Below, in pieces: positions 1-19,612 of a DNA stretch of 20,702 nt. The stretch lies in IMG/VR virus record IMGVR_UViG_3300040801_001797, positions 1 through 20,702 of that record. One strand, written 5' to 3'. Below the pieces are notes generated by a model. It did no database searches and was not told the DNA's origin. It was given only the letters and a program-made list of their open reading frames with translations. Every line of letters starts with the position of its first letter. The stretch's first letter is position 1. The DNA is from a virus. The translations under genes and the position numbers were made by a program.

Positions 1-2956
1 AGAACAGATTGCGTACGTTGAACAGATCTCTTCCCACGAACCTCCTCGTTATGGCATTGACATCGTCAACGATTGATCGGTACGCAGCGAAGAACGCCTC
101 CGCTATCTTCTGGTCTTTAGCACTTAGCATGCTCCCGCTCTGTATAGACTCAATCATCTCCTGCGTTAGCATGTGCGTTTCCTTGCCAGCTATGAAGCCT
201 TTGTACAAGAGGCTGTCGCTTGCGGCGTTGTTTATCTTCTTCGCTCCAGCTTCGACCTTGCCATCCATCGCGTACATGTAGAGCTTTATCCGCTGCATGC
301 GGGTTAGTTTTACGCTGACTTCCTTGGTGTCGAACACCGTGACTTCCTTGACCTTGCCTTTGGCGTCAGTCTTCTTTACCTTTCGAATGTTGGTCTTCAC
401 AGTCAGCTTAGTCGGGGAGTCCATCGTGTTGAGCTCAGCTATGAGCTTGTTGAGATTCTTTGCGTCGATCCCTATTTCTTTTAAGCCAGCCCTAAAGTTG
501 TCAGATAGTTTTCGGGCTATCATTGACATTATCTCTTCTGACTGGCTGAACTTCTCTGCTATTTCGGAAAACACCGGCCCCATCTTACGGAGCTGTACTG
601 CTAAACTGTAGACACTTCGAGCGCCAATGACCCCCGATCGGTTGAGCATGTTCGTTATCGTCTTAACAGCCTTGGTTTTAGGTATCGAGGTTCCAGCCTG
701 TATTCCCTTCTCCGGAGTTACTACTTCCTTAGCTATCCTGCGTACCTCATCCTGCGCCGCTTGTGTGGCTAAGGCTTCTTTGGTTTGCGCCTTCTCTTTT
801 TTCGCCTGCTCTGCCTTCGCCTTCTTCTCCGCTGCCCGCGCCTTCCTCTGCTCCGCAGCCTCTTTTAGTATCTCCTTTTTTGTCTTTGTAGATCCGCGCT
901 TTTTAGCGGCAGGCTTCTTAACCGGTGCTTGCATTTTAACTGGAGCGGGGGCCTCGGGTGCGGGTGCTCCACCTTCGAACACTCGACTTACGTACTCGTC
1001 AAGACTCTCCAACACTCGGTCCTTCATCTCTGGCGTGACCGCGTCTCCGAACTCCTCAGTTATTTGCGCCATAACTTCATCCACCGCGTCATCCAACTGC
1101 TTGCCAAGGTCTGCCCCGTCAGTCTGTATCATAGCTTCTGGATCTCCTACTACCTTGGACCGGCTAGGAATGTCCAGCTCTTTCTTTATCTGGTCAACGA
1201 TCTCCCTCATCGCATCGTCCAGCTGGTCTCTGGTCGTTATCTCATCACCAGCCCTACCTGGAGCGAACAGCGCTCTGGTCCTTGCCTTCATTCTTTCTAC
1301 GGCGACTACTAATTCCCGATATGCATCCGGTTTGGTGTCGTCAAGTTTGCTGAACAGCGCTTTGAACACAGAGTTATCATCTGCTTTTGGGTCAAGCCCG
1401 AGCACCTTCCGGTACACGTTAGTGATCCACTCTTTCACAGCCTTGAACGCCCGCCTCAATGGCCGGTTGAAGTCATCCATCTTGCCCGCCATGAACTTCA
1501 CAAAGTCATCAGCGAACATCTCCTCCATCTTTCTGGTCCAAGGCATATCTGCCTGCGCCCCATACTTTTTGTTGAGCGCATCGAGATGTTTACCCTTTAT
1601 GTCCGAGCGCATAAGGTGGCCCATCTCGTGGATGAACTCAGCGCTTGAAGTACCTTTACGCACCGACCTAAGTATAAGTTTGTTATCCCTCGAAAGTAAC
1701 GACACCGTGTCCGCCATCTCTGCTTGGAAACCCTTGGCTTTCATGTACTCGGTTAGTGACATCTTATCGCTGGCGGCTCTTGCCTCTAGCAGGTCAAGCT
1801 CCAGGTCGATAGTTCCTTCCTCTCCCGGGGCGCGAGTGGCCTCCATGAAAGATCTTAGATTGTTTCTGCTTGGCTCGGCGTTTACCGCGTCAACGATAGC
1901 CTGGTCCGCATCCACTTCTGGGACGTCAGGAACCTCGACATCTGCTGGTCGTGTAGCGTTCTGGTACTTGACAGACTGAGGCTTGTCAGATCTTACGGTA
2001 GGTACAAACTCGCCGTCTACGAATGATCCTAGCGGAGTCTCGCCTGCTAAGTCAGTCTCTGTCAGCTGTAGTATGGCGTTCTCAACGTCTTTTGCTGGCG
2101 CCCCTGTGGCCTCCGCTACGTCATTAGCCGCCCGCTTGGCGTATCTTGACTTGGCTTCTTTGAAAGAAATGCCGAGTGCTCTTGCGCTATTTCGCAAAGC
2201 GAATCCGAATATAGGTGAAGCAAGCCCGTCCGTCAACCCAGCCTCTACGACGTTTCTCATGTCTCCGCCTTTGCCAAGTCGTTGCTGTATTGCCTCCGAC
2301 AGCACGCCAGTCGCTACTCCCTCTAGCGTGTCTACTCCAGCCTCTACCAACAACTTATGCCCTCCTGATCTGCCGGCTACTGTCAGCGCGTGGATGGCCT
2401 TAGCCTCTCTCAGTATCTGGCCTGCATTGCGCAGCCTGAATGCGGCTTTTCCCACATGTTTGGCCCTGTTGAACGCGGCAGCAGCCACCCCTAGCGGACC
2501 TGTCAGCATGCTAACACCTATCTCAATCGGAGAGTCAGAAGCGAATCGGGAGACCAGGCCCGCGCCGAACGCAGTCACCGGGTTGCTCGACGCGTAGTTG
2601 TACGCTTCCATGTCGAGCCTGTCCTTCTCCCCAGGCGTAAGGTTCTGCATGCCCAAAGCCCTGCCGATTATACCCTCTGAAAAGTCACGTTGTATTACTG
2701 ACCCGAGGGAGCCCTGTTCTACCTGCGACCGCTCGAGGGGGTTCGCTGGCGCGAACTCGCCCATCATTGACGACCCCGTGTCGCTCTCGAACTCCTTCTG
2801 CGCTGCTACTGCTGGATCGAACCGAGGGGCGCTTACGGGATCTGGGGCTGATACTTCACTGGCAGTGGATATGACTCCAGTTGGCCCCCTAGATATTTGT
2901 AGGTCTGGGCTCGCGCCTAGCAGGACGTCTTTATTGAGTATTCCCACTATACGCAT
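1..2956 (-). CDS. Giant putative ejection / polyvalent virion protein with HExxH metallopeptidase motif (5' part only)
   Basis: I translated this frame by hand: it stays open for 985 codons and leaves the window at base 1, so the C-terminus is missing. Residues 1-95 look like a flexible, Pro/Ser/Ala-rich leader. Residues 100-265 are helical, with hydrophobic Ala/Gly stretches near 144-162 and 236-262. Residues 441-447 read FIHEMGH, an HExxH zinc motif (H443, E444, H447). MEEMFADDF follows at 477-485, where E479 could be the third gluzincin-type ligand. Residues 664-740 are a Lys/Ala/Glu-rich linker or coiled coil. Residues 880-985 are helical and begin with LTRMQRIKLYMYA. Peptidase domains of this kind are known in large phage polyvalent proteins that enter the host with DNA; delivery here is inferred from the position after the tail genes. 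The ATG overlaps the upstream gene by 26 bases. AAAGAGGA abuts it with no spacer, so GTG at 2947-2945 (spacer 9) is a good alternative start. Confidence 0.85.
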   Translation of the reverse strand, partial: MRIVGILNKDVLLGASPDLQISRGPTGVISTASEVSAPDPVSAPRFDPAVAAQKEFESDTGSSMMGEFAPANPLERSQVEQGSLGSVIQRDFSEGIIGRALGMQNLTPGEKDRLDMEAYNYASSNPVTAFGAGLVSRFASDSPIEIGVSMLTGPLGVAAAAFNRAKHVGKAAFRLRNAGQILREAKAIHALTVAGRSGGHKLLVEAGVDTLEGVATGVLSEAIQQRLGKGGDMRNVVEAGLTDGLASPIFGFALRNSARALGISFKEAKSRYAKRAANDVAEATGAPAKDVENAILQLTETDLAGETPLGSFVDGEFVPTVRSDKPQSVKYQNATRPADVEVPDVPEVDADQAIVDAVNAEPSRNNLRSFMEATRAPGEEGTIDLELDLLEARAASDKMSLTEYMKAKGFQAEMADTVSLLSRDNKLILRSVRKGTSSAEFIHEMGHLMRSDIKGKHLDALNKKYGAQADMPWTRKMEEMFADDFVKFMAGKMDDFNRPLRRAFKAVKEWITNVYRKVLGLDPKADDNSVFKALFSKLDDTKPDAYRELVVAVERMKARTRALFAPGRAGDEITTRDQLDDAMREIVDQIKKELDIPSRSKVVGDPEAMIQTDGADLGKQLDDAVDEVMAQITEEFGDAVTPEMKDRVLESLDEYVSRVFEGGAPAPEAPAPVKMQAPVKKPAAKKRGSTKTKKEILKEAAEQRKARAAEKKAKAEQAKKEKAQTKEALATQAAQDEVRRIAKEVVTPEKGIQAGTSIPKTKAVKTITNMLNRSGVIGARSVYSLAVQLRKMGPVFSEIAEKFSQSEEIMSMIARKLSDNFRAGLKEIGIDAKNLNKLIAELNTMDSPTKLTVKTNIRKVKKTDAKGKVKEVTVFDTKEVSVKLTRMQRIKLYMYAMDGKVEAGAKKINNAASDSLLYKGFIAGKETHMLTQEMIESIQSGSMLSAKDQKIAEAFFAAYRSIVDDVNAITRRFVGRDLFNVRNLF

Positions 2957-4667
2957 TCCTCTTTATGATTATGTATTTATCGAGTATATCGGAGTACTTA
3001 GCCAGCCCCTCTCCAGCGAGGAGCACCGCGTTAGGCTTGCGGGGCGCTACAGGAGCAGGTCCAAAGGCTATTACTGATTCTGGCATAACCATTCCTGTAG
3101 CATTCCTCGAGGTCAGGGCCTCATCCAAGAACCCCCTTGAGGCTCTGAGTTCGACCAATAGTTGGCCCATTCTAGTGTTAGGATCTTTACCTCCGTCAGA
3201 GCCAGCGATGAGCCGGTCGAGCCCTCTGTATAGGCTCCTAACCTTTCGCACAGGTCTATCCCATCCGTCTTTCCCCTCGTTGGCTAGCGCCTGTACATGC
3301 TCTGTAGCTAGACCTTGGTACTGAGCGGGGGTGAGTAACTTGGTGTTGACCATAGCCTTCGTCTCCGGATCTTGCGTCATGGCGTACCTATTTAGTCTGG
3401 CTCCAGGCTCTGACATAGTGGCCCCGAGTTGCGGCCCGCTATCCAAGCGCATGAATACCGTCGGGCCTTGGCGGGTTACCGCAATCCCTCTATCAACGAC
3501 CCCAGGTATCTCTTTCCTGGCCTCGAATATTCCTGAGCTTTGGAATCCAGCTCCAGTTATCTTAGCTACGTTTGGATTTGTGTTAGAGAAAGTTAGGCCC
3601 TTAGTGTCGACCCCCCTTATAGCAAGTTGAGTTATCATTAAGCCACTTTTTACTCCGATCTGTTTCGCGGTTGTCCCCTCGCTGATGTCTTTTTTGCGTT
3701 GTATATTGTATGCCGCTAGAGTCTCGCCTACAGTCTTAAACTTCGAAGTCTTCATGAACTCTTGCCCATCCTTCGTTTTTAACCAAGCTCGTATCTCAGC
3801 ATCGGTGGCGTCAGCCCCGAATTCTTCCAGTATCGTATCCGCCAGAGACTTAACTGCCTGCTCTTGTATCTGATTCTCGTTTTGTTTCTTTATCTCTTTG
3901 TCGGTCCTGTTCGTATTGGCAAGGGCTTTATCTATGATAGCCTGCCGTACCTTTGGGTCCGGAGTACCGCCAGCCGCAACTACGTCGGCATCATACGCAG
4001 CCAGAACTCCTTGCAGGTCTGATATGTTAGCCGCGTTTAGTAGAAGGTCTTGGTATTTGCTTGGTATGGGAGGCGCTGACCCAGCTGCCGCCGTTGGCCA
4101 TATAGATTTGGCTGTGCTCTGCAGCTTCTCTATAGCTGCTACTTTGACGCTGGGTGACGCCTTCGACCCTTTGATGGCTGCTATCGCATCCGGAAGGCTT
4201 GGTTGGTCCATGCCCTGTATCACTAGTTCGCCAAGGTCGTTATCATCTTTCTGTTTTCCAGCTTTGGTCTGCAGCATGGTTGTGTAGTCTATCAGTTCAG
4301 AACTAACACGCTTCGGATCCACTTTGCTCTGTCCCTTAAAATACGCTCCGAGCTTCTGGTCCATGAGGCCGGAGGAGACCATGCTGTCAATAGTTTTTCC
4401 GTTTCCTGCCTGCGCTAACACATCAGCCCTGTACTTGACGAAGGCTTTAGGCTCGCGCATAGCGTCTGGATGAAAGGTCATACGCTCTTTGGCGATTGAC
4501 CCCAAAGACTTGTCGAGCTGCGCTTGCTGGTTGAACTGATTGACTGCTTCAGAGAAGTCAGCCCGTGTGCGCGTTTCTTCCTCACGCACTCTGTAGTTCG
4601 TCATCTGAGACTGGATCCTCGAGGGATCTAGCATGTTCCCGATTATGCTTGCCGTGTTGTCAGCCAT
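2931..4667 (-). CDS. Internal virion / ejection protein candidate, 578 aa
   Basis: I do not recognise a family. The first roughly 90 residues are polar and Gln/Arg/Glu-rich (for example RVREEETRTRADFSEAVNQF near 26-45), as in helical ejection proteins. The middle is Ala/Lys/Asp-rich and the C-terminal third mixes beta-like and helical stretches with Pro-rich segments. There is no signal peptide or clear membrane segment. Its start shares one base with the upstream stop (TAATG), implying translational coupling, and its 3' end overlaps the giant gene by 26 bases. Lying between the tail nozzle genes and the giant protein, where podoviruses encode internal core proteins (T7 gp14, gp15 and gp16 positions), it is probably packed in the head and ejected. 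That role is inferred from gene order only. Confidence 0.7.
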   Translation of the reverse strand: MADNTASIIGNMLDPSRIQSQMTNYRVREEETRTRADFSEAVNQFNQQAQLDKSLGSIAKERMTFHPDAMREPKAFVKYRADVLAQAGNGKTIDSMVSSGLMDQKLGAYFKGQSKVDPKRVSSELIDYTTMLQTKAGKQKDDNDLGELVIQGMDQPSLPDAIAAIKGSKASPSVKVAAIEKLQSTAKSIWPTAAAGSAPPIPSKYQDLLLNAANISDLQGVLAAYDADVVAAGGTPDPKVRQAIIDKALANTNRTDKEIKKQNENQIQEQAVKSLADTILEEFGADATDAEIRAWLKTKDGQEFMKTSKFKTVGETLAAYNIQRKKDISEGTTAKQIGVKSGLMITQLAIRGVDTKGLTFSNTNPNVAKITGAGFQSSGIFEARKEIPGVVDRGIAVTRQGPTVFMRLDSGPQLGATMSEPGARLNRYAMTQDPETKAMVNTKLLTPAQYQGLATEHVQALANEGKDGWDRPVRKVRSLYRGLDRLIAGSDGGKDPNTRMGQLLVELRASRGFLDEALTSRNATGMVMPESVIAFGPAPVAPRKPNAVLLAGEGLAKYSDILDKYIIIKRNAYSGNTQ

Positions 4668-5514: not shown

Positions 5515-5892
5515 TTATACTCCTAAGATCATGTTAGTCACCAGCTGGTCACCAATCCGAAAACCGATTCTGCTCATCAATTTTAGCAGAGCGGGGTTGT
5601 CTGTATAGGCGAACACGACAAGGCATCCAGCGTCCTGCGCTTCATCTGCCTGTTCTTTGAATATCGATTCCAGAGCTTTAAGCGCTGCCAGTTTACCAGC
5701 CTTTGGGTTTATGACAGGCCAGCCGATGAACGCTATGGCTGAGTTGCCGGTGTACAACCAGCTCGCAGCCAGATCTTCTACGATCAACCCGTCCTTCGAC
5801 AGCAGAGCTGGGTCTGGCGCGAAAGCGTCATTACCTTCCCACCAGTCTTGGATCGTGGCGTAGTCCTCAGCGATGTATCTTCTCATGCTCAT
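5515..5892 (-). CDS. GNAT-like acetyltransferase-fold protein, possibly degenerate
   Basis: This 125-residue protein has the outline of a GNAT N-acetyltransferase: an N-terminal MRRYIAEDYATI segment, a central beta strand (SAIAFIGWPVIN, 51-62), a helix (68-86), a strand (CLVVFAYTDN, 90-99) and the C-terminal pattern NPALLKLMSRIGFRIGDQ (99-116), typical of GNAT motif B. The acetyl-CoA pyrophosphate loop (R/Q-x-x-G-x-G/A) is not evident; the corresponding area reads NPKAGKLAAL, so catalysis is doubtful. Small GNAT-like proteins often sit beside tail or internal-core genes in podoviruses, where they may be structural. The ATG overlaps the nozzle gene stop (ATGA), and a second ATG two codons later could be the true start. 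Upstream there is little Shine-Dalgarno sequence, so coupled translation is likely. Confidence 0.7.
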   Translation of the reverse strand: MSMRRYIAEDYATIQDWWEGNDAFAPDPALLSKDGLIVEDLAASWLYTGNSAIAFIGWPVINPKAGKLAALKALESIFKEQADEAQDAGCLVVFAYTDNPALLKLMSRIGFRIGDQLVTNMILGV

Positions 5893-7829
5893 CGTACAAA
5901 GTAGAAGTCGTAAAGTATTGAGCCCGAGGTCAACGCCTGCACTTCAAAGGTCCAAGTTCGCCCCAGGCTGCTTGGCAACCTCTGGATGAACTCTTGTTGG
6001 GATACGGCTGTAGGAAGCGTCATGTCGACCGTGTTGGCCGTTAAGGCGTTCCCGTCTTGTGACACGAACCTAATCCTCAGACTTCCAGAATACGACACCT
6101 TGAACTTCCTCGCGTACTCTATCTTGAACCTCTGCAGTACTTGTGGCGTGAACCGTTTAGAAGTCCACTTCCATAACCCAGACGCCTCAAGTGTCTGAGT
6201 ACTCGTAACCCAGTTCTTGGCGTCCCTGTGGTACACCATGATAGTTGGGTTGTTTGTCTTCTTGAACACATACTTGTCACTACCTGACAGCTTAGCATAG
6301 CTTACGCCTTGCGTAGTTATTGGGCTGGAGTTCTTAACCCTCTGGCTTACTTCCTTTACTGCCTGGAGATTGTACTCGTAGACCTTCTGGCCATACGGAC
6401 CAGTGTCGTATCCTGCGTCAGTCGACCTGGTTATGAACATGACGACACCATTGGCGTCAACCATAGAATTGGCCTCAACATAGATGTCTGGTATTGCCTT
6501 GAACATCACGTATGGGTTGGCCTCCGTTCCATCTCCGTTTATATGGTATAACCCTTTAGTTGTCCCGACTACTGTAGTGAACGACCCGCCAACCGTAGTA
6601 GGATCTCGGACGGTTATAAGGTCGGTTATGTTTCCTTCAAAAGAGAAGGTGTTCGACCGGTTCCATCCCCACCAATCCCCCGCTCTGCTGTACAGCAAAA
6701 GATCTTGCCTGCTGTAGGGCTGCATCCACAGCCTATTGTCCTTCTCAAACAGTTTTAGGTAGTCGCTACTTGTGTTGTTTATGGCTGTGTTTATGACAGA
6801 AAACGTCTCATCGTCTTTGTTGACAAGTAGTGTTACGCTTGCTATGGCTGAGGCCAGTACATTGTCCGACCACTGAGCCCCCGCAGTAACTGTTCCATTC
6901 TCCGCAGTTACGTTTACGCCATCGTATTTGGCGACCCGTATGTACTCAGCGTCGTCTGGGCCTCTCCGGAAGAGCCACACTTCGTCTGTGTATGTTAGGG
7001 GAAAAGTAGGGAATGTTAGCTGAGGCGCAAAGCTCCCAGTTCGCACCCCTACCTCGTCAAAGTTGTCTACTGTTATAGTGGAAGGCGCACTGGGGACCCC
7101 CTGTATCTCCGCTTCCGGATCAAGGGCCACAGTTGCGTCTTTCTTTACGTTTACTTGCAGATAACTGTAGTCTCCATCAGCGAAGGAAGGCGCCATCATT
7201 TTACTGGAGGCTACTGCGTTTAGCGTTGGGATCCCCGTGTTGAAGGCAACTATCAACCCCCCGTAGCTAATATCGACTGTCGTACCAGGGGTCGCGGGAA
7301 CCGATAAAGGCCCGACCCGTGCGTTTACGTCAGTCGAGAACTTCCAGACGAACTGATAAGGTGACGAGTTTGTAATGATTATCTCTATCGTTACGCCAGA
7401 AGCCCCGGTATAGGACTCGTTTGCTTTGAGCGCGAAGGTCACCGACTGGGAAGGATTACTATCGAAGAGGGCAGGGTTTTGATCTATGCTTAGGTTCTCA
7501 GCGAGGCCCAAGACCGGAGTACTGGCGGTAGGGGGATGAAAGTTATCATTGACTTGGTTGCTTAGCCCCCCAGGCGTCTCGTAGAAGTACAGAGACCCGG
7601 AACTAAGGTAGAACTTGCGCCCATTCAGCACGACATCGGTCGACACACCAGACCAGTCCTTGGCTGTATCAGTCGCGTCATAGTAGTCGCTGCCTTCCAG
7701 GGTTCCGAGGGCAAGTCTGTCAGCATCAAGACCCTCCACTAGCGTGGCCTCCGGTTTACGGAGGTCCGCCGCGTCCTGGTTGTTGTTCAGGAACCCAAAG
7801 GTGAATCGGCTGTTGACTTGGTTACCCAT
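5889..7829 (-). CDS. Tail hub / nozzle protein (tail tubular protein B-like)
   Basis: A 646-residue, almost wholly beta-rich protein with many Thr, Ser, Val, Tyr and Gly residues and no transmembrane segment. The N-terminus (MGNQVNSRFTFGFLNNNQDA) is followed by short strand-turn units, including WLFRRGPDDAEYIRVAKYDG near 306-325. A tryptophan-containing segment (AGDWWGWNRSNTFSF) and a propeller-like portion (TKGLYHINGDGTEANPYVMF) occur in the second half, then a C-terminal beta domain ending in ILYDFYFVR. Length and composition fit podovirus nozzle or stabiliser proteins such as T7 gp12, which close the tail tube beneath the adaptor. Assignment rests on fold impression and on position between fibre genes and internal virion genes. 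It starts at a TAATG junction with the 90-residue gene, so it is probably translationally coupled. A fibre or baseplate-hub role is the main alternative. Confidence 0.65.
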   Translation of the reverse strand: MGNQVNSRFTFGFLNNNQDAADLRKPEATLVEGLDADRLALGTLEGSDYYDATDTAKDWSGVSTDVVLNGRKFYLSSGSLYFYETPGGLSNQVNDNFHPPTASTPVLGLAENLSIDQNPALFDSNPSQSVTFALKANESYTGASGVTIEIIITNSSPYQFVWKFSTDVNARVGPLSVPATPGTTVDISYGGLIVAFNTGIPTLNAVASSKMMAPSFADGDYSYLQVNVKKDATVALDPEAEIQGVPSAPSTITVDNFDEVGVRTGSFAPQLTFPTFPLTYTDEVWLFRRGPDDAEYIRVAKYDGVNVTAENGTVTAGAQWSDNVLASAIASVTLLVNKDDETFSVINTAINNTSSDYLKLFEKDNRLWMQPYSRQDLLLYSRAGDWWGWNRSNTFSFEGNITDLITVRDPTTVGGSFTTVVGTTKGLYHINGDGTEANPYVMFKAIPDIYVEANSMVDANGVVMFITRSTDAGYDTGPYGQKVYEYNLQAVKEVSQRVKNSSPITTQGVSYAKLSGSDKYVFKKTNNPTIMVYHRDAKNWVTSTQTLEASGLWKWTSKRFTPQVLQRFKIEYARKFKVSYSGSLRIRFVSQDGNALTANTVDMTLPTAVSQQEFIQRLPSSLGRTWTFEVQALTSGSILYDFYFVR

Positions 7830-8103: not shown

Positions 8104-9909
8104 TTACGCCTTATAACTCATGGTAAAAAGAAGACTTCCAGTGCCAAGGTCAGCATGCGTCGTATTGTTAGACACGCCACAATTGTCGTGAGTGAACACT
8201 ATAGTCGACCCAGAACTCTGAGCGAATCCCGTGTTGTCAACGCTAGTCACAGACCAGCCAACCCCTATGACCGACGACGTTACTGCTTGTTGCGACGCAC
8301 CAAGCGCAAATGGCAACCCGGCGACTATTACCTGGCCACTTGCAGTCCCGGCTACCAGAACGTCTATATGGCAGAACACGTATACTAGGTCCCCTATCTT
8401 AGTGTATCTTCCGATCTGCACCGCGTATGTCCCCGTTCCTATGTTGGAGAAGGTCGGGGTCCAAGTTCCCTCTTCGTAATCGTCGAGAGTGTTTGCAGCT
8501 GCCGTGTCTCCATGAAACAAAACCCCAACGAAGTTGGGCGTTGCCGTAGTCGCTACGCTTTGGTTTAGCCCTAAAATGGCGTTTACCTGTGCCGCTGTCA
8601 AGTCAACTGGAACTCCGGTTCCCGCGCCAGACGCTCTTCCCTTGATCGTTGCCTGCGCCATGTTAGCGAGCTTGGCGTTGGTCACTATAGCCGTGCCAAT
8701 AGTAAGAGCCCCGCTTCCCGTTACGTCCCCCGTGTGCGTGGCGTTGGTGACCTTCGCTGTGTTCGCCGATACATTTGAGTTGGCGGACACAGTAGTCTGA
8801 AAGTCAGATATGGTGGCTGCAAGCTGAGTTCCGGTGTGGTTGGCCCGTGCAAGCAGAGTAGCGTCTGAGCTATTGGCAGTCGCACCAGCGGCTATGCCGT
8901 CGAGCTTCGACCCATCTGTAGCTATCGTTCTGCCGTTTACCGCAACAAAACTAGGGCTTGCCGTAGTTCTGACATCTTGGTTTAGGTACGTGTGGTCGAC
9001 GCCTGAGCTGGTCCTGTGAGTGGTATTCAGACCTACTGCAGCATCATTGGCGCTCGCTAGAGCCTCTACCTCTGACTTAGAGTAGACGTCGAGGTTACCT
9101 CGCGAAGTTGCTATGCTTGCGAGGTCTCCAAGGTTTGATGCAGCGGCCAGGTATTTGTTGTCCGCTTCAGTCTTTGTGTAGACGTCAGCCTTGGCATACA
9201 CATCCAAGTTTGTCCTGGCGGTGGCTGCGTTATTCAAGTCCGACAGGTTGCTTGCCTTTGCCAAGAACAGCGAGCTGCTGCCGTCGTAGCGCAGTAGAGC
9301 GCTTACCGTCTCGTCATCAGATATTAAGCCACCGGTTCCCTGCGCGAAAAACGTAACGGGGACCGAGACATAGCCGCCGGTTCCCGGCCCACCAGTCTGA
9401 GTTGGGGTCCCGGTTACGTTGAAGTTATAGACCTTGTCTCCTTCATTCTTGTCAGAGATCATCATCGCGTCTCCATCCCCAAGAAGCAGCGTTATGTTTG
9501 AGATGTTCAGCCCCTGGTCGTTGAAGTTAGAGAGGTTTATGACCGAGGCCAAAGAGGGGTCAGCGTTATCCATCTTCGCCTCGCCGTCCGCAGGGGCGTC
9601 GACCGCTGTCTTCCACAAGAAGGTGGACTGCGTGGTGGATAGGGTGCTGAGGTCTTCCATCGTAGCAAAGACGTTCAGCGCCGTGGGGGTTGCGGCGCCA
9701 TCCAGCGCGGCTTTCTGGTCCGTTGTGGGAAGAAAGGGCTTGACGTTGTTCGTTACATCGTCAACTATCGCTTGCTGCGATATGAGTGTCTCAGCCCGCA
9801 CACCTTTCTCGTATAAGTGATGGGTGCTGGTGGGAGAATCGACTGTCGCTGGCGAAGCCTTGTACGCTTCTGCTTCTAGCCTACCTGGATTGTTTGTTTC
9901 TAGTGCCAT
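8104..9909 (-). CDS. Tail fibre protein with EEGTWTP-type C-terminal domain
   Basis: A 601-residue fibre. Residues 1-245 are a paralogue of the start of the upstream fibre: both share an ExxN-x-GRL-x-A-x-AYKA opening, the segment H-x-YEKGVRAE and the block NLSDL-x-NAATARTNLDVYAK (221-240 here). Residues 259-278 hold a degenerate second copy (NLGDLASIATSRGNLDVYSK). Residues 293-365 have the GLNTTHRTSSGVDHTYLN and KLDGIAAGAT patterns common in trimeric phage fibres. The C-terminus has ANTLDDYEEGTWTPTF (472-487) then QIGRYTKIGDLVYVF (498-512), a widespread globular tip of fibre and receptor-binding proteins. The N-terminus probably docks on the tail and the tip contacts the host, which is inference from architecture. 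A 49-base gap precedes it; AAGAGATAACGACATG gives a modest ribosome-binding site. Confidence 0.9.
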   Translation of the reverse strand: MALETNNPGRLEAEAYKASPATVDSPTSTHHLYEKGVRAETLISQQAIVDDVTNNVKPFLPTTDQKAALDGAATPTALNVFATMEDLSTLSTTQSTFLWKTAVDAPADGEAKMDNADPSLASVINLSNFNDQGLNISNITLLLGDGDAMMISDKNEGDKVYNFNVTGTPTQTGGPGTGGYVSVPVTFFAQGTGGLISDDETVSALLRYDGSSSLFLAKASNLSDLNNAATARTNLDVYAKADVYTKTEADNKYLAAASNLGDLASIATSRGNLDVYSKSEVEALASANDAAVGLNTTHRTSSGVDHTYLNQDVRTTASPSFVAVNGRTIATDGSKLDGIAAGATANSSDATLLARANHTGTQLAATISDFQTTVSANSNVSANTAKVTNATHTGDVTGSGALTIGTAIVTNAKLANMAQATIKGRASGAGTGVPVDLTAAQVNAILGLNQSVATTATPNFVGVLFHGDTAAANTLDDYEEGTWTPTFSNIGTGTYAVQIGRYTKIGDLVYVFCHIDVLVAGTASGQVIVAGLPFALGASQQAVTSSVIGVGWSVTSVDNTGFAQSSGSTIVFTHDNCGVSNNTTHADLGTGSLLFTMSYKA

Positions 9910-9958: not shown

Positions 9959-11455
9959 TCATGCTCTTGATATAACGGTAGACACCCGACTTCCGTGCTC
10001 ATTCAGCACCGTAGGCGTCATGTTAGCTGACTGAGTTAGTGACACCGTCAACTGTCCAGTCGTTGTCAGTGTGTAGGTAACTGTCACTGTCCACGCTGCG
10101 TCACCGGGGACCGCTACATACATGGTAGCCACATTTACGGTCCCAGTTGCCCCTAACAGCCCACCGTTATTATAAAAAGGCGACAGTTGCATCCTTTGGT
10201 TCGCATAATGCCCTACAAACGAACCGTTATCGTACATGAGAAGTACACTACCGGCTCCCACCACCGTTCCACCACTGTAGAACATCTCCGATTGGATGAG
10301 GTATTTGCCTGTTGGCGTAATGTCAGCATGTGATATTACTACAGACTCATTTGTAAAAGACGGATTGGTTGTGACCTGGCCAATCCCAAGAGGCAGACCC
10401 GAACCGGCTGATATTTCGTCTGACACATAATCAGCGACCGCTTTACTCGATGGAACCCTAAACTCCGACACAGGATTGAGCGGCGTCTGCAGCCACGAGG
10501 CCGGTATTTGTTCGACGTTTAACACGGAACCAAGTCCTATATTTACTTTTGCGTCCCCTATGTTGGTCAAGTCCGACAGGTTTGATGACGATATGAGATA
10601 CCTCGAATCTCCCTCCGTGGTAGAATACACGCCAAGGTTGCTTCGAGCTGTGGCCGCGTTGTCCAAGTCCGACAGGTTTGTGCTCTGCTTGAGGAACAAC
10701 CCGTCAGCTGCCGACTGGGTGTAGACTGACGCCTTGGCGTAGACATCGAGGTTGGTGCGAGCTGTAGCCGCGTTCTGTAGATCAGAGAGATTGTTGGCTT
10801 TGGCCAAGAACTTTGTGTTGCTTCCGTCATAGCGCATGAGAACATTCGCCACCTCTCCGTCTGCAATAGTGCCTCCACCCCCTTGAGAGAAGAGAGTAAC
10901 CGGCACTTCTACGTAACCTCCAGTTCCCGCGCCGCCCACCTGAGTGGGGTCGCCAGTCACATCGAAGTTGTAAACCTTCGTAGCGTCTATGACGTCAGCG
11001 ATCATGATAACGTCGCTGTCGCCTAATAGGAGTGTCTGGTTCGAATCATTGAGCCCGTTGCTGCTTATGTTGGCTACCCTAACCACAGTCGCAAGTGCTG
11101 GATCCGCGTTGTCCATGCTGACTTCACCGTCTGCTGGGACGCCAGCCGCTGCGTTTGAGTAGTAAGCAGCCTGTGAGGCGGCAGCCTGGACCGCTACATC
11201 ACTTGTTGTAGCAAATGGGTTTGAGGAGCTTGGGCTGTTGGCGGCGTCCATCGCGGCCTTCTGGTCAGAGCTGGGGAGCACAGGTGTGATTGTGTCCGTG
11301 ACTTCATCGAGGACAGATTGCTGAATTATGAGCAGCTCAGCGCGTACTCCCTTCTCGTAGGAGTGGTGCGAGCTGGTTGGAGATTCGACGTTTACCGGGT
11401 CCGCTTTATACGCCTGCGCGTCTAATCGTCCTTGATTGCTTGTCTCTTCAGCCAT
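9959..11455 (-). CDS. Tail fibre / adaptor fibre protein, paralogue of the downstream fibre
   Basis: A 498-residue fibre. The N-terminal 245 residues match the following fibre: RLDAQAYKADP (10-20), HSYEKGVRAELLI (31-43), a shared beta section (VYNFDVTGDPTQVGGAGTGG, 161-180) and MRYDGSNTKFLAKANNLSDL (207-226). Three 19-20-residue units follow at 222-241, 260-279 and 292-310, of the form NLSDL-x-N-x6-NL/I-x-VY/GLG. Residues 311-498 are unlike the other fibre: a short helical part (SSKAVADYVSDEISA, 336-350) and a beta-rich tip with no EEGTWTP motif, ending VLNEHGSRVSTVISRA. It starts inside the end of the coiled-coil gene (ATGGCTGA, 8-base overlap). It may be the adaptor carrying the second fibre, or an alternative receptor-binding protein. 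Confidence 0.88.
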   Translation of the reverse strand: MAEETSNQGRLDAQAYKADPVNVESPTSSHHSYEKGVRAELLIIQQSVLDEVTDTITPVLPSSDQKAAMDAANSPSSSNPFATTSDVAVQAAASQAAYYSNAAAGVPADGEVSMDNADPALATVVRVANISSNGLNDSNQTLLLGDSDVIMIADVIDATKVYNFDVTGDPTQVGGAGTGGYVEVPVTLFSQGGGGTIADGEVANVLMRYDGSNTKFLAKANNLSDLQNAATARTNLDVYAKASVYTQSAADGLFLKQSTNLSDLDNAATARSNLGVYSTTEGDSRYLISSSNLSDLTNIGDAKVNIGLGSVLNVEQIPASWLQTPLNPVSEFRVPSSKAVADYVSDEISAGSGLPLGIGQVTTNPSFTNESVVISHADITPTGKYLIQSEMFYSGGTVVGAGSVLLMYDNGSFVGHYANQRMQLSPFYNNGGLLGATGTVNVATMYVAVPGDAAWTVTVTYTLTTTGQLTVSLTQSANMTPTVLNEHGSRVSTVISRA

Positions 11456-13467: not shown

Positions 13468-14481
13468 TTACGCGTCCCCGAGTGAAAACTCGTACTGGAA
13501 CATGTAGGTAGGCTGCACGATTACAGCAGCCTTTTTGGCTTTCCACCCAATGGTCGACCTCTGATTGAGAGGATCGGTAGTTCCACCAGAGCCCAAAGGC
13601 TTGATGATAACTTCGACATCGGAAGCCCCGATGAGGGTGGTGTGGAAGGCGCCTTTACCGAACACCAAAGACAGCGAGATCTCTTGTGGAGTCCCGGCAG
13701 TGTTATCGGCGGTAGAGGTTTCCGTGTCGCCAATGAAGGAGAACTGTTTGAAAGTTCCGTACTCATTGGTCCAGGTTGGACGCTGAGAACTGTAGTTCTC
13801 AGTGTTGGTGAAAGTGTTACCTTCTCCGTCGTCCAGAGCTTCCAACAGGCCAACTGCTTCCCAAGGCACGATAACGGGGTACGTCTCGCGGGTGGGGGTA
13901 GTTCCGGTGTTGGCAGAGCCACTGGTCATTGGGCGGATGGGCTTGACTTTCTCGTTCTTGAACGCCTTGAACATGAACGCGAAGTCGGCTGCAGGCATGC
14001 TGGAGGTCGTGATAGAATCACGGTCAGCAACACCACCGGCATAACGAATGTTGGTTCCACCAAGCAGATCGTCACGAACAACTTTGTTCATGGTTTCAGC
14101 GCCTTGCTCTGCAATGCGCATGTTGAACTGAGAAGTCAATCCGTTTACGGATTCTTCAGACAGGCGGTCAGTAGTGGTAGCGTAGCCACCGTACTGGTCA
14201 ACTGCTTTCTCCAGGCGAGACATCTGGAACTGCTGTTCCGTGGGGGTCGTACCTTCGGTGAGGGGCGAGCTTTCCAGAGTGGAGAGCTTGTTTACCTTGT
14301 TGAAAACGATGGTGTTCGAGGAATTGTTGGATATGTTGGCGGGTGTGCCGAACATGTCAAATACCAGCTCAGGATTCGCAATGCGAATAAACTCAGCTAC
14401 GTAGTATTTGTGGTTTGCGGGGAACGCACCAAGCGCGGGGGATGCCGCGCCGATAGTTCCAGTACTTATATTCAAAGCCAT
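13468..14481 (-). CDS. Major capsid protein, N4-gp56 type
   Basis: A 337-residue protein matching the N4-gp56 major-capsid pattern: KYYVAEFIRIANPELVFDMF (25-44), a strand with TIVFNKVNKL (57-66), PLTEGTTP (73-80), DQYGGYATTTDRLSE (95-109), then a long helix and VVRDDLLGGTNIRYAGG. These correspond to the family features LTEGxTP, xQYGxY and VRDxLxxGTN. It forms the HK97-fold shell around the scaffold. The start is supported by AAAGGA nine bases before ATG. It follows the scaffold gene across a 39-base AT-rich gap and precedes a UUCG hairpin. Codon use differs from its neighbours: I count 2 ATA among 18 Ile codons, suggesting selection for high expression. Confidence 0.9.
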   Translation of the reverse strand: MALNISTGTIGAASPALGAFPANHKYYVAEFIRIANPELVFDMFGTPANISNNSSNTIVFNKVNKLSTLESSPLTEGTTPTEQQFQMSRLEKAVDQYGGYATTTDRLSEESVNGLTSQFNMRIAEQGAETMNKVVRDDLLGGTNIRYAGGVADRDSITTSSMPAADFAFMFKAFKNEKVKPIRPMTSGSANTGTTPTRETYPVIVPWEAVGLLEALDDGEGNTFTNTENYSSQRPTWTNEYGTFKQFSFIGDTETSTADNTAGTPQEISLSLVFGKGAFHTTLIGASDVEVIIKPLGSGGTTDPLNQRSTIGWKAKKAAVIVQPTYMFQYEFSLGDA

Positions 14482-17732: not shown

Positions 17733-17756
17733 CTAGAACACAGTTGAACTAGGGGC
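17729..17756 (-). repeat. Inverted repeat spanning the terminase stop codon
   Basis: GCCCCTAG (17729-17736) and CTAGGGGC (17749-17756) form an 8-bp perfect stem with a 12-base loop. The terminase TAG stop lies in the stem. No U-run follows on the minus strand, so it is not a clear terminator. It partly overlaps the candidate -35 element, so it might limit readthrough or affect promoter access. Confidence 0.4.
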
Positions 17757-19184
17757 AGACATGAGCTTATCATAATCTAATTTTGATTTACGAATTTTAA
17801 TGTGGTTCATGGCAGCGTAACCACCACAGTCAAGCATGTCGTCATGCTTGCCGCGGGGGAAGGTTACCATCTCATCTTGGAAGTCAACCCACCACGGTGC
17901 AGATGCGGGTATCATAATCTGGCGACGGTCAAAAAAGGGCTGCAGGTTGTAGATTCTGTTCTTACCCATGGCTACCTGCTTGCCATCTATCTCCTCAACA
18001 TTGATGCAGTGCCCGCCAGGCCACGACCCGTTCTCCAGATCCTGCACAAGGTAGTGCTGGCCTTGGACCGCCTCTATGTACGTGCGGTTTGGGTTCCAGC
18101 GCAGGTACTCTTCGACCACCGTGTTGAGGATCTCTGTCTTCATCATACGCTCTCTCACGATGTTCAGTACCCACATGTTACCCAATGCGTCCAGCCCAGA
18201 GGTCCAGATGACAGTCGGGTCATGGTCCCCGTCAGCGCGGATGCCGGGGTCTACGATGGTGATGATGTCCATGCGCCCCGCTCTCGCAGCCTTGAGCTGC
18301 TCCGGGCCATAGAACCTTACCTGCTGGGGCTCGAAGGTTCTGTCCTCTCTGGCCACAGCGATGTTCATGTACTCGGTATTGAACCGGTAGAGCATTCCCT
18401 GCCGGATATATTCCTTGCGCTTGGCTGCTATCCAGGATTCGTCATATTTCTCTGGCCAAGTTGGCTTGCCTGTGACGTCATCGATAACTCCATACCTAAA
18501 GATCTTCCAGTCTCGACCCGTCTTGGGATCCACGGGCGCATTAGCCTGGATGTCAGCCAGCAGACTGGCCTCGTGCAGCATGGTCCCAACGTAAAAGAAC
18601 CTTGCTTCTTTACCGAGGGGCATCACATCTGAGTAGAACCAGTCCTTTAGCTTCTTGCGCTGGTCTGGATTCCTAACGTTTTCCGTGTTCTCGATGTCGT
18701 CAATGATGATTAGGTCAGGGCGGTACTGCTCGTAGCGTTCACCGCGCAGGTTCTGGCCGGCTCCAAAGCACTTGATCATAAACTTGTTGTCGCCCAGAGA
18801 GTAGCTAAATTGCTCCTTCGTTGGGTGGACCTTAGTCATCATCCGCTTAAGAAGCGGGTGTCCGAGAACGGCGCTCTGGACGTTGCTCAGCGCGGAGGAG
18901 GCCTTGGTCAGACTGGTGGCGATGTACATGATGTAGTGGTACTTCTGGTGAAGTATATTCCACGAGCTCATTCCTTCCCACACAAAAGTCGTCTTACCGA
19001 ACTCTCTAGGGAAAGCCAGCGCGGTTGATTCCTCTGAGTTTACGAGGGCGTCACTCAGCCGGTAGTGGAGGGGGCAGGGCTTTACGTAGAAAAGGTCAGG
19101 GTAGAGCGCCAGACCAGTGCTTACAAGGTTACGCCTCGTAACGTGGAGGAGCTCCTTTATCTGGTCTTCTTCTAAATCTGACAT
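17733..19184 (-). CDS. terL: Terminase large subunit (packaging ATPase and nuclease)
   Basis: A 483-residue TerL. The ATPase Walker A variant is PREFGKTT (59-66, K64), Walker B is LIIIDDIE (158-165) and the coupling motif is GTMLH (200-204). The RNase H-like nuclease follows, with candidate metal ligands D312 (VDPG, 311-314), E371 (YIEA) and D448/D449 (KHDDMLD, 446-452). All motifs are intact and length is normal for the family. The enzyme cuts concatemeric DNA and drives it through the portal encoded next. A small subunit is not recognisable nearby; upstream are fibre-like and membrane proteins. The ribosome-binding sequence before ATG is weak, so translation may be coupled to the gene ending 12 bases upstream. 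The stop lies inside an 8-bp inverted repeat. Confidence 0.95.
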   Translation of the reverse strand: MSDLEEDQIKELLHVTRRNLVSTGLALYPDLFYVKPCPLHYRLSDALVNSEESTALAFPREFGKTTFVWEGMSSWNILHQKYHYIMYIATSLTKASSALSNVQSAVLGHPLLKRMMTKVHPTKEQFSYSLGDNKFMIKCFGAGQNLRGERYEQYRPDLIIIDDIENTENVRNPDQRKKLKDWFYSDVMPLGKEARFFYVGTMLHEASLLADIQANAPVDPKTGRDWKIFRYGVIDDVTGKPTWPEKYDESWIAAKRKEYIRQGMLYRFNTEYMNIAVAREDRTFEPQQVRFYGPEQLKAARAGRMDIITIVDPGIRADGDHDPTVIWTSGLDALGNMWVLNIVRERMMKTEILNTVVEEYLRWNPNRTYIEAVQGQHYLVQDLENGSWPGGHCINVEEIDGKQVAMGKNRIYNLQPFFDRRQIMIPASAPWWVDFQDEMVTFPRGKHDDMLDCGGYAAMNHIKIRKSKLDYDKLMSAPSSTVF

Positions 19185-19195
19185 ACGTTTCTGGC

Positions 19196-19612
19196 CTAAC
19201 GTCTGCGTGAGTGCAAGCTGAACATTGTAACGAAGGCTATCGTTACCTCAAACCATGCCTGGAATAAAATACCTGGTGTTCGGCCAGGAACCACAAGGCT
19301 CTCTGGCTGGTTGAATAATCTACCTATAAGTCCGTGCTTTAACGGAATAAGGATGTCGGTCTCCGTGGGGTGATACATCGCGTAGACCCCTATAAAACAC
19401 CAAGTCCCGAAGACCATGAACGCGCATATCGAGCGCGTCAAATTAGCTATGATGTTTTTGTTGGTGAGCTTCATGAGCTCTATGTGGGCTTTTATCTGCG
19501 CTTCTTCCCGTAGGTGAAGCCGCTCAGAGTTCTTCTCTGAATTATAAAACCACGAGTTTACTACGTTGAATATGAGCTTTGATCCAGCTCCTACTAATAT
19601 CGATTCAATCAT
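19196..19612 (-). CDS. Two-membrane-segment protein, possible holin
   Basis: A 138-residue protein. Residues 3-22 form an amphipathic helix (ESILVGAGSKLIFNVVNSWF), and 25-58 are a charged helix. Two likely transmembrane segments follow at about 60-80 (SICAFMVFGTWCFIGVYAMY) and 114-133 (GILFQAWFEVTIAFVTMFSL), and the C-terminus is basic (SRRR). The shape fits small phage inner-membrane proteins such as three-helix holins, which make the hole that releases lysis enzymes, but no signature is decisive and no endolysin is visible. The likely start is ATG at 19612-19610, where AGAAGG touches the ATG without a spacer. It follows a hairpin and precedes the terminase gene by 11 bases. Confidence 0.65.
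   Translation of the reverse strand: MIESILVGAGSKLIFNVVNSWFYNSEKNSERLHLREEAQIKAHIELMKLTNKNIIANLTRSICAFMVFGTWCFIGVYAMYHPTETDILIPLKHGLIGRLFNQPESLVVPGRTPGILFQAWFEVTIAFVTMFSLHSRRR

Follow-up and report, generated by a model that had tools for sequence, protein, structure and literature searches.

What is the very large protein encoded at the end of the late gene cluster of this virus, and what could the zinc-peptidase motif within it be doing there? The window analysed here, 20,702 bases of viral DNA, is a whole IMG/VR record, and the gene in question is cut at its 3' end by the window edge, which is the end of that record.

The giant gene and its syntenic relatives

The giant gene lies on the minus strand and is, with 985 residues, the biggest frame of the window (Table 1). 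FIHEMGH at residues 441-447 and MEEMFADDF at 477-485, which the original prediction had read in this frame as a gluzincin-type motif with E479 as candidate third ligand, are present to the letter. Among shuffles of the giant protein, which contains 7 His, any HExxH at all occurred in only 0.3%, and an HExxH with ExxA downstream at roughly the expected spacing in 0.03%. An AAGAGG sequence is found 1-2 bases ahead of the ATG at 2956 and about 10 ahead of the GTG at 2947 (codon 4), and given these spacings the true start may be the GTG, three residues later. The Lys/Ala-rich linker and the hydrophobic helices that had also been noticed are both there, but the linker is poorly conserved in homologues and the hydrophobic segments, at residues 144-162 and 236-254, are moderate, with Kyte-Doolittle values of 1.5 and 1.3. 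Opposite the giant gene, a plus-strand open frame of 450 aa (window 627-1979) probably mirrors codon bias rather than being a gene.

Homologues were sought by way of synteny around the capsid gene (phrog_1357) and not by way of the motif, and the motif conservation seen among them is therefore unbiased. Two complete syntenic giants were found, namely P0002 of 1338 aa (L006:4188-8204) and P0003 of 1346 aa (L014:2120-6160). Some 350 residues of the window giant would lie beyond the end of the record. The window giant, P0001, is about 32-33% identical to P0002 along 590 residues (pairwise E 8e-77), and P0003 is about 20-25% identical to either. When the three giants are aligned, 83 of the 718 columns free of gaps (11.6%) are invariant, most densely at residues 421-480, and H443, E444, G446, H447, D452, E479, F481, A482 and D484 are the same in all three giants, as is the His-Glu spacing of 32. 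Residue E478, on the other hand, is Ser in P0003, which makes E479 the better candidate for a third ligand. Conservation among homologues had been set beforehand as a check that could refute the interpretation, and upon running it the motif proved conserved, at fixed spacing and with E479 included. A TD-x-(I/L)ASP-x-FGFAL stretch is furthermore kept in two of the three giants, and its ASP-x-F part in all of them. The C-terminal region of P0003 matches phrog_28077 (1524 positions, function unknown; E 9e-6), and P0001 and P0002 do not.

Other searches for relatives came back empty: the window giant stood alone in a protein-based scan of viral contigs, tblastn of all three giants and of the 578-aa upstream neighbour against 50,697 phage records found no relative, two scans of genome contigs found nothing, and an HMM search over Schitoviridae, T7 and AD45 genomes gave no match. 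Those phage records likewise contained no named member of this short-tailed phage group, and the architecture of the whole giant had no match in Pfam, PHROG, NCBIfam or the named-phage proteins searched.

Table 1. Features of the giant protein and of the late gene cluster, in window coordinates
Feature	Position	Strand	Basis
Giant gene, 985+ residues, 3' end cut; homologues of 1338 and 1346 aa	2..2956	-	Frame
Metallopeptidase-like domain, residues ~375-545; mobile module of other giant viral ORFs	1322..1834	-	AlphaFold2 model; blastp/hhalign over ~385-548
HExxH motif H443-E444-M445-G446-H447; two candidate zinc ligands and general base	1616..1630	-	Invariant His, Glu, Gly, His
E479-x-F-A; candidate third zinc ligand, 32 residues past H447	1511..1522	-	E479, F481, A482 invariant
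N-terminal Gly/Ala-rich helical region, residues ~85-300; candidate membrane-interacting part	2057..2704	-	Hydropathy, conserved ASP-x-F
Lys/Ala-rich linker, residues ~664-745	722..967	-	Sequence, alignment
578-aa protein, 26-base overlap with giant gene; positional counterpart of SU10 gp23, T7 gp15 and N4 gp51 (tunnel slot)	2931..4667	-	Gene order, size
Protein of up to 202 aa, presumed ejection cluster; counterparts of 184 and 202 aa in L002 and L009	4667..5275	-	Gene order
100-aa protein, positional candidate for small pore-type ejection protein; homologue in L009	5211..5513	-	Position
125-aa protein, phrog_17252 (function unknown), very weakly acetyltransferase-like	5515..5892	-	Profile match
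646-aa protein, positional nozzle/tail-tube-B candidate, kept in both homologous contigs	5889..7829	-	Position
SU10-type adaptor, PF24175	12104..12778	-	E 2.8e-13
Major capsid protein, phrog_1357	13468..14481	-	Used for syntenic-homologue search
SU10-type portal, PF23899	15799..17676	-	E 4e-63
Terminase large subunit, phrog_38	17733..19184	-	E 4.4e-80

A metallopeptidase-like domain shared with polyvalent proteins

The AlphaFold2 model of residues 360-545, made from three sequences (pLDDT 76, pTM 0.74), consists of helices, strands 411-414, 418-421 and 427-430, helix 438-449 with the HExxH motif, helix 455-465, helix 475-489 with E479, and a long helix. The core of the polyvalent MPTases has been described as an N-terminal helix, three strands and two helices, with an HExxH helix and a Glu on the second C-terminal helix (PMC5512222), and the secondary-structure order of our model, judged as order rather than from coordinates, is the same. 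The placement of HExxH on helix 438-449 and of E479 on helix 475-489 likewise agrees with that description of the MPTases (Iyer 2017), and residues 360-545 are accordingly predicted to hold a zincin-like core. Foldseek against the PDB with this model returned no zincin, only unrelated helical folds, and VIA-align on these matches reached Z up to 4.1 with globins and again found no zincin; such an absence does not show that the fold of the domain differs from that of zincins. In BFVD no match fell below E 0.001 (best probability 0.97, E 0.03), and the best and several further matches are phage proteins of more than 1000 aa, two of them named large polyvalent proteins, which is suggestive only. 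An AlphaFold model of the full-length giant from two sequences was poor (pLDDT 40) and is excluded from our conclusions.

To look for the domain elsewhere, HE[hydrophobic]GH-x31-E-x-F-A was written as a degenerate DNA pattern and validated on known copies. Run on viral contigs, it matched 84 stretches against about 3 expected by chance (a rough estimate), and among the matches listed the motif was in frame at 79 of 80 loci, many of which belong to other protein families. The window domain does however align with that of eight ORFs (L052, L056, L060, L063, L095, L098, L125 and L127), which measure 887 to 3667 residues, most of them being cut by the end of their stretch. Because the motif served to select these eight, finding it invariant there is uninformative, but R450, L/I453, G466, W473 and E478 are conserved outside the search pattern. 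By blastp the best match of the window domain to these giants has an E-value of 1e-15 over residues ~392-548, and the profile-profile comparison gives a probability of 99.6 and an E-value of 3e-24. The likeness is mainly confined to this domain, which is therefore a mobile module. The Pfam family ART-PolyVal (PF18760) is found in L063 (4.5e-23) and L127 (2.1e-17), and phrog_9880 (2231 positions, function unknown) covers the domain in four of the five giants scanned, with L052 as the exception, at E 1e-4, and matches the window domain at E 4.9e-5.

Since the domain is shared with giant ORFs bearing ART-PolyVal, it is, as far as sequence relationships go, a metallopeptidase-like domain of the polyvalent-protein kind (Iyer 2017). 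The HExxH, the downstream Glu and the predicted three-strand core order are common to the window giant and the polyvalent MPTases (PMC5512222); the giant differs from these polyvalent proteins in having no second recognised enzymatic or LPD domain, and the Pfam model PF18818 (MPTase-PolyVal) gave no match to G000, G001 or G003 at E<=10. The original prediction had called the architecture unfamiliar, and this applies to the protein as a whole, which matches no family searched, but not to its domain, which is of a known polyvalent kind found beside ART-PolyVal.

Besides these giants, the DNA pattern recovers a distinct viral family, with HELGHRYE ... GE-x-FAELFA in proteins of ~150-600 aa, that recurs in many large viral contigs (L051, L059, L065, L066, L083, L087-L090, L092, L094, L096, L097, L101, L102 and others). 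The L056 contig, which bears a giant of 3039+ residues with the same domain as the window giant, contains a stretch resembling the SU10 terminase (L056:12509-12892, E 1e-8), and this giant is therefore also near virion genes.

The giant in a presumed ejection slot

The structural genes of the window are all on the minus strand and run from terminase through portal, scaffold candidate, capsid, adaptor, two fibres, nozzle candidate and small proteins to the 578-aa protein and the giant. This is the order of SU10, which has terminase, portal, scaffold, capsid, adaptor, fibres, the nozzle gp17 and then gp20-gp24, with gp23 of 551 aa and, as last late gene, gp24 of 1473 aa, an established ejection protein whose slot and size resemble those of the giant; gp20-24 are present in SU10 virions and missing after genome release (PMC9509320). 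In T7 the cluster likewise ends with gp14 (196 aa), gp15 (747 aa) and gp16 (1318 aa), the last being a giant helical protein of comparable slot and size, and in N4 with gp52, gp51 and the 3500-residue vRNAP (gp50), again in the order small, mid-size, giant. The late position after the tail genes, to which the original prediction drew attention, is thus the place where SU10, N4 and T7 have genes for injected proteins, and by its gene order and size the giant is most likely the last-encoded ejection protein of an SU10/T7-like short-tailed phage. This assignment is one by analogy, as the giant has no similarity above null to T7 gp16 or SU10 gp24. That it is an ejection-slot giant with a polyvalent-type MPTase-like domain we regard as very probable.

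Comparison of the window giant with SU10 gp24 gave no sequence similarity above null, and homology to T7 gp16 was rejected at the sensitivity of hhalign, the scores being within the permuted null. The neighbouring proteins were at or near null against T7 gp12-15, N4 gp51-53 and SU10 gp17-23; in particular, the 646-aa protein reached barely null level against SU10 gp17, and the 100-aa protein had no similarity to T7 gp14 or N4 gp52. The best named relatives of the window portal are from Alteromonas phages and Schitoviridae, at ~20-25% identity.

A parallel in domain content is provided by N4, in whose vRNAP, the third ejection protein, a large helical region, C2, comes after an HExxH domain, C1 (PMC12633501). 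Two weak collinear profile matches between C1 and the window giant (P 0.009 and 0.003), one over the HExxH segment and one over the helix that comes after the Glu motif, exceed all 100 permuted-column nulls, and make a likeness of C1 to the window domain suggestive. The His-Glu spacing is however 32 in the window giants as opposed to 64-81 up to the EF-x-A motif in N4-like phages, and single-subunit RNAP Pfam models, which are found in N4 gp50, have no match in P0001-P0003. SU10 gp24 in turn differs from the window giant in having no HExxH, and the motif, as read from these sequences, is thus not general for the giant slot.

Possible functions of the domain

For the giant as a whole we consider it reasonably probable that it is an injected peptidase acting at entry, with H443, H447 and E479 as zinc ligands and E444 as base; its packaging, injection, zinc binding, proteolysis and substrate are all features that we infer. 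As a late product it would be enclosed in the phage head and enter the cell before the DNA or together with it, and its N-terminal helices would probably engage the cell envelope. During entry the peptidase would then most likely cut the giant itself or its partner ejection proteins, and cleavage at poorly conserved linkers, for instance the Lys/Ala-rich one, would free a large C-terminal part or allow it to refold. This choice of substrate, which we favour tentatively and at somewhat less than an even chance, follows the precedent of P1 DdrB, where an MPTase-bearing packaged protein is processed (PMC5512222), and the poor conservation of the segments after the domain. Against self-cleavage it should be mentioned that the proposed linker cut site is itself unconserved and that the N4 vRNAP stays whole.

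Indeed the fact that the N4 vRNAP is packaged unprocessed (PMC5512222) keeps host targeting a serious, if rather unlikely, rival, by which the same ejection protein would carry its peptidase into the cell as an effector that cuts a host protein of defence, envelope or regulation early on. The pairing of the same domain with ART-PolyVal, a protein-modifying effector type, in related giants speaks for this, as does the fact that host targeting is one of the options considered by Iyer et al. (PMC5512222), but neither the giant nor its two homologues have an ART or other recognised effector domain, and there is no clue to a substrate. N4 also suggests that the HExxH domain might be mainly structural, serving packaging or folding but having hardly any peptidase activity or none. 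This may be the case for C1 of its vRNAP, since encapsidation requires the region with the MPTase and the vRNAP is nevertheless unprocessed (PMC5512222). In the window giant and its homologues, however, the two His are retained at 20-32% identity together with the catalytic Glu and the Glu of the third ligand, and as a structural role would not obviously need all four, we find this improbable. The late-cluster position would also suit a maturation protease, a late protein that is no part of the virion and processes head or tail proteins inside the cell, but the length of ~1340 aa, the hydrophobic helices near the N-terminus and a slot in common with SU10 gp24, T7 gp16 and N4 gp50 suit ejection better and make such a function very unlikely.

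A further role to be considered is opening of the envelope, with the metallopeptidase replacing the peptidoglycan hydrolase of T7 gp16 and SU10 gp20. No SLT or lysozyme domain was found in the ejection-cluster proteins scanned from the window and its homologues, including the N-termini of P0001-P0003, whereas the same scans detect SLT in T7 gp16 (1.7e-31) and SU10 gp20 (1.1e-23). To our knowledge, however, peptidoglycan metallopeptidases mostly use other motifs (M15, M23), and furthermore divergent hydrolases can escape HMMs and the gene sets of these phages are partial, so that the lack of a hydrolase among the scanned proteins is a lead that falls short of proving absence, and this role seems to us highly improbable. 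P22-type gp16 proteins are also without an SLT domain (PMC8954989). There is only a small chance, in our view, that a virion-packed metallopeptidase is the only recognised enzyme of the ejection apparatus and cuts either an envelope protein or a host protein at genome entry, in a group for which no virion peptidoglycan hydrolase is recognised.

Returning to the injected peptidase acting at entry, HExxH domains have been described in the N4 vRNAP and in polyvalent proteins (PMC5512222), and whether such head-packed domains are active has been a question since their description. The kind of domain is thus known, and what is new is the whole architecture, in which a polyvalent-type metallopeptidase-like module is found in the ejection slot of a short-tailed phage. 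Judged from sequence comparison, a giant with HExxH but with no polymerase and no recognised peptidoglycan hydrolase matches no family searched, and at ~1340 residues and with no other recognised enzyme it would be a simpler protein for testing HExxH activity. The giant ejection slot may be a cassette site, as its contents suggest: T7 fills it with a transglycosylase and N4 with a polymerase, SU10 gp24 has no recognised enzyme, and the window giant carries a metallopeptidase-like domain.

Two observations concern genes further up the cluster. A 138-aa protein with hydrophobic segments (window 19196-19612) adjoins the terminase gene and is 64% identical in L008 and L009, which places it among the best conserved proteins of the group. 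The two fibre-like genes, at 8104-9909 and 9959-11455, are similar over their N-terminal ~210 residues and then diverge, and each of them matches the same short protein of 213 aa at 12589-13230 of the homologous contig L002, which looks as though the tips of the fibres had been duplicated and swapped on one anchor.
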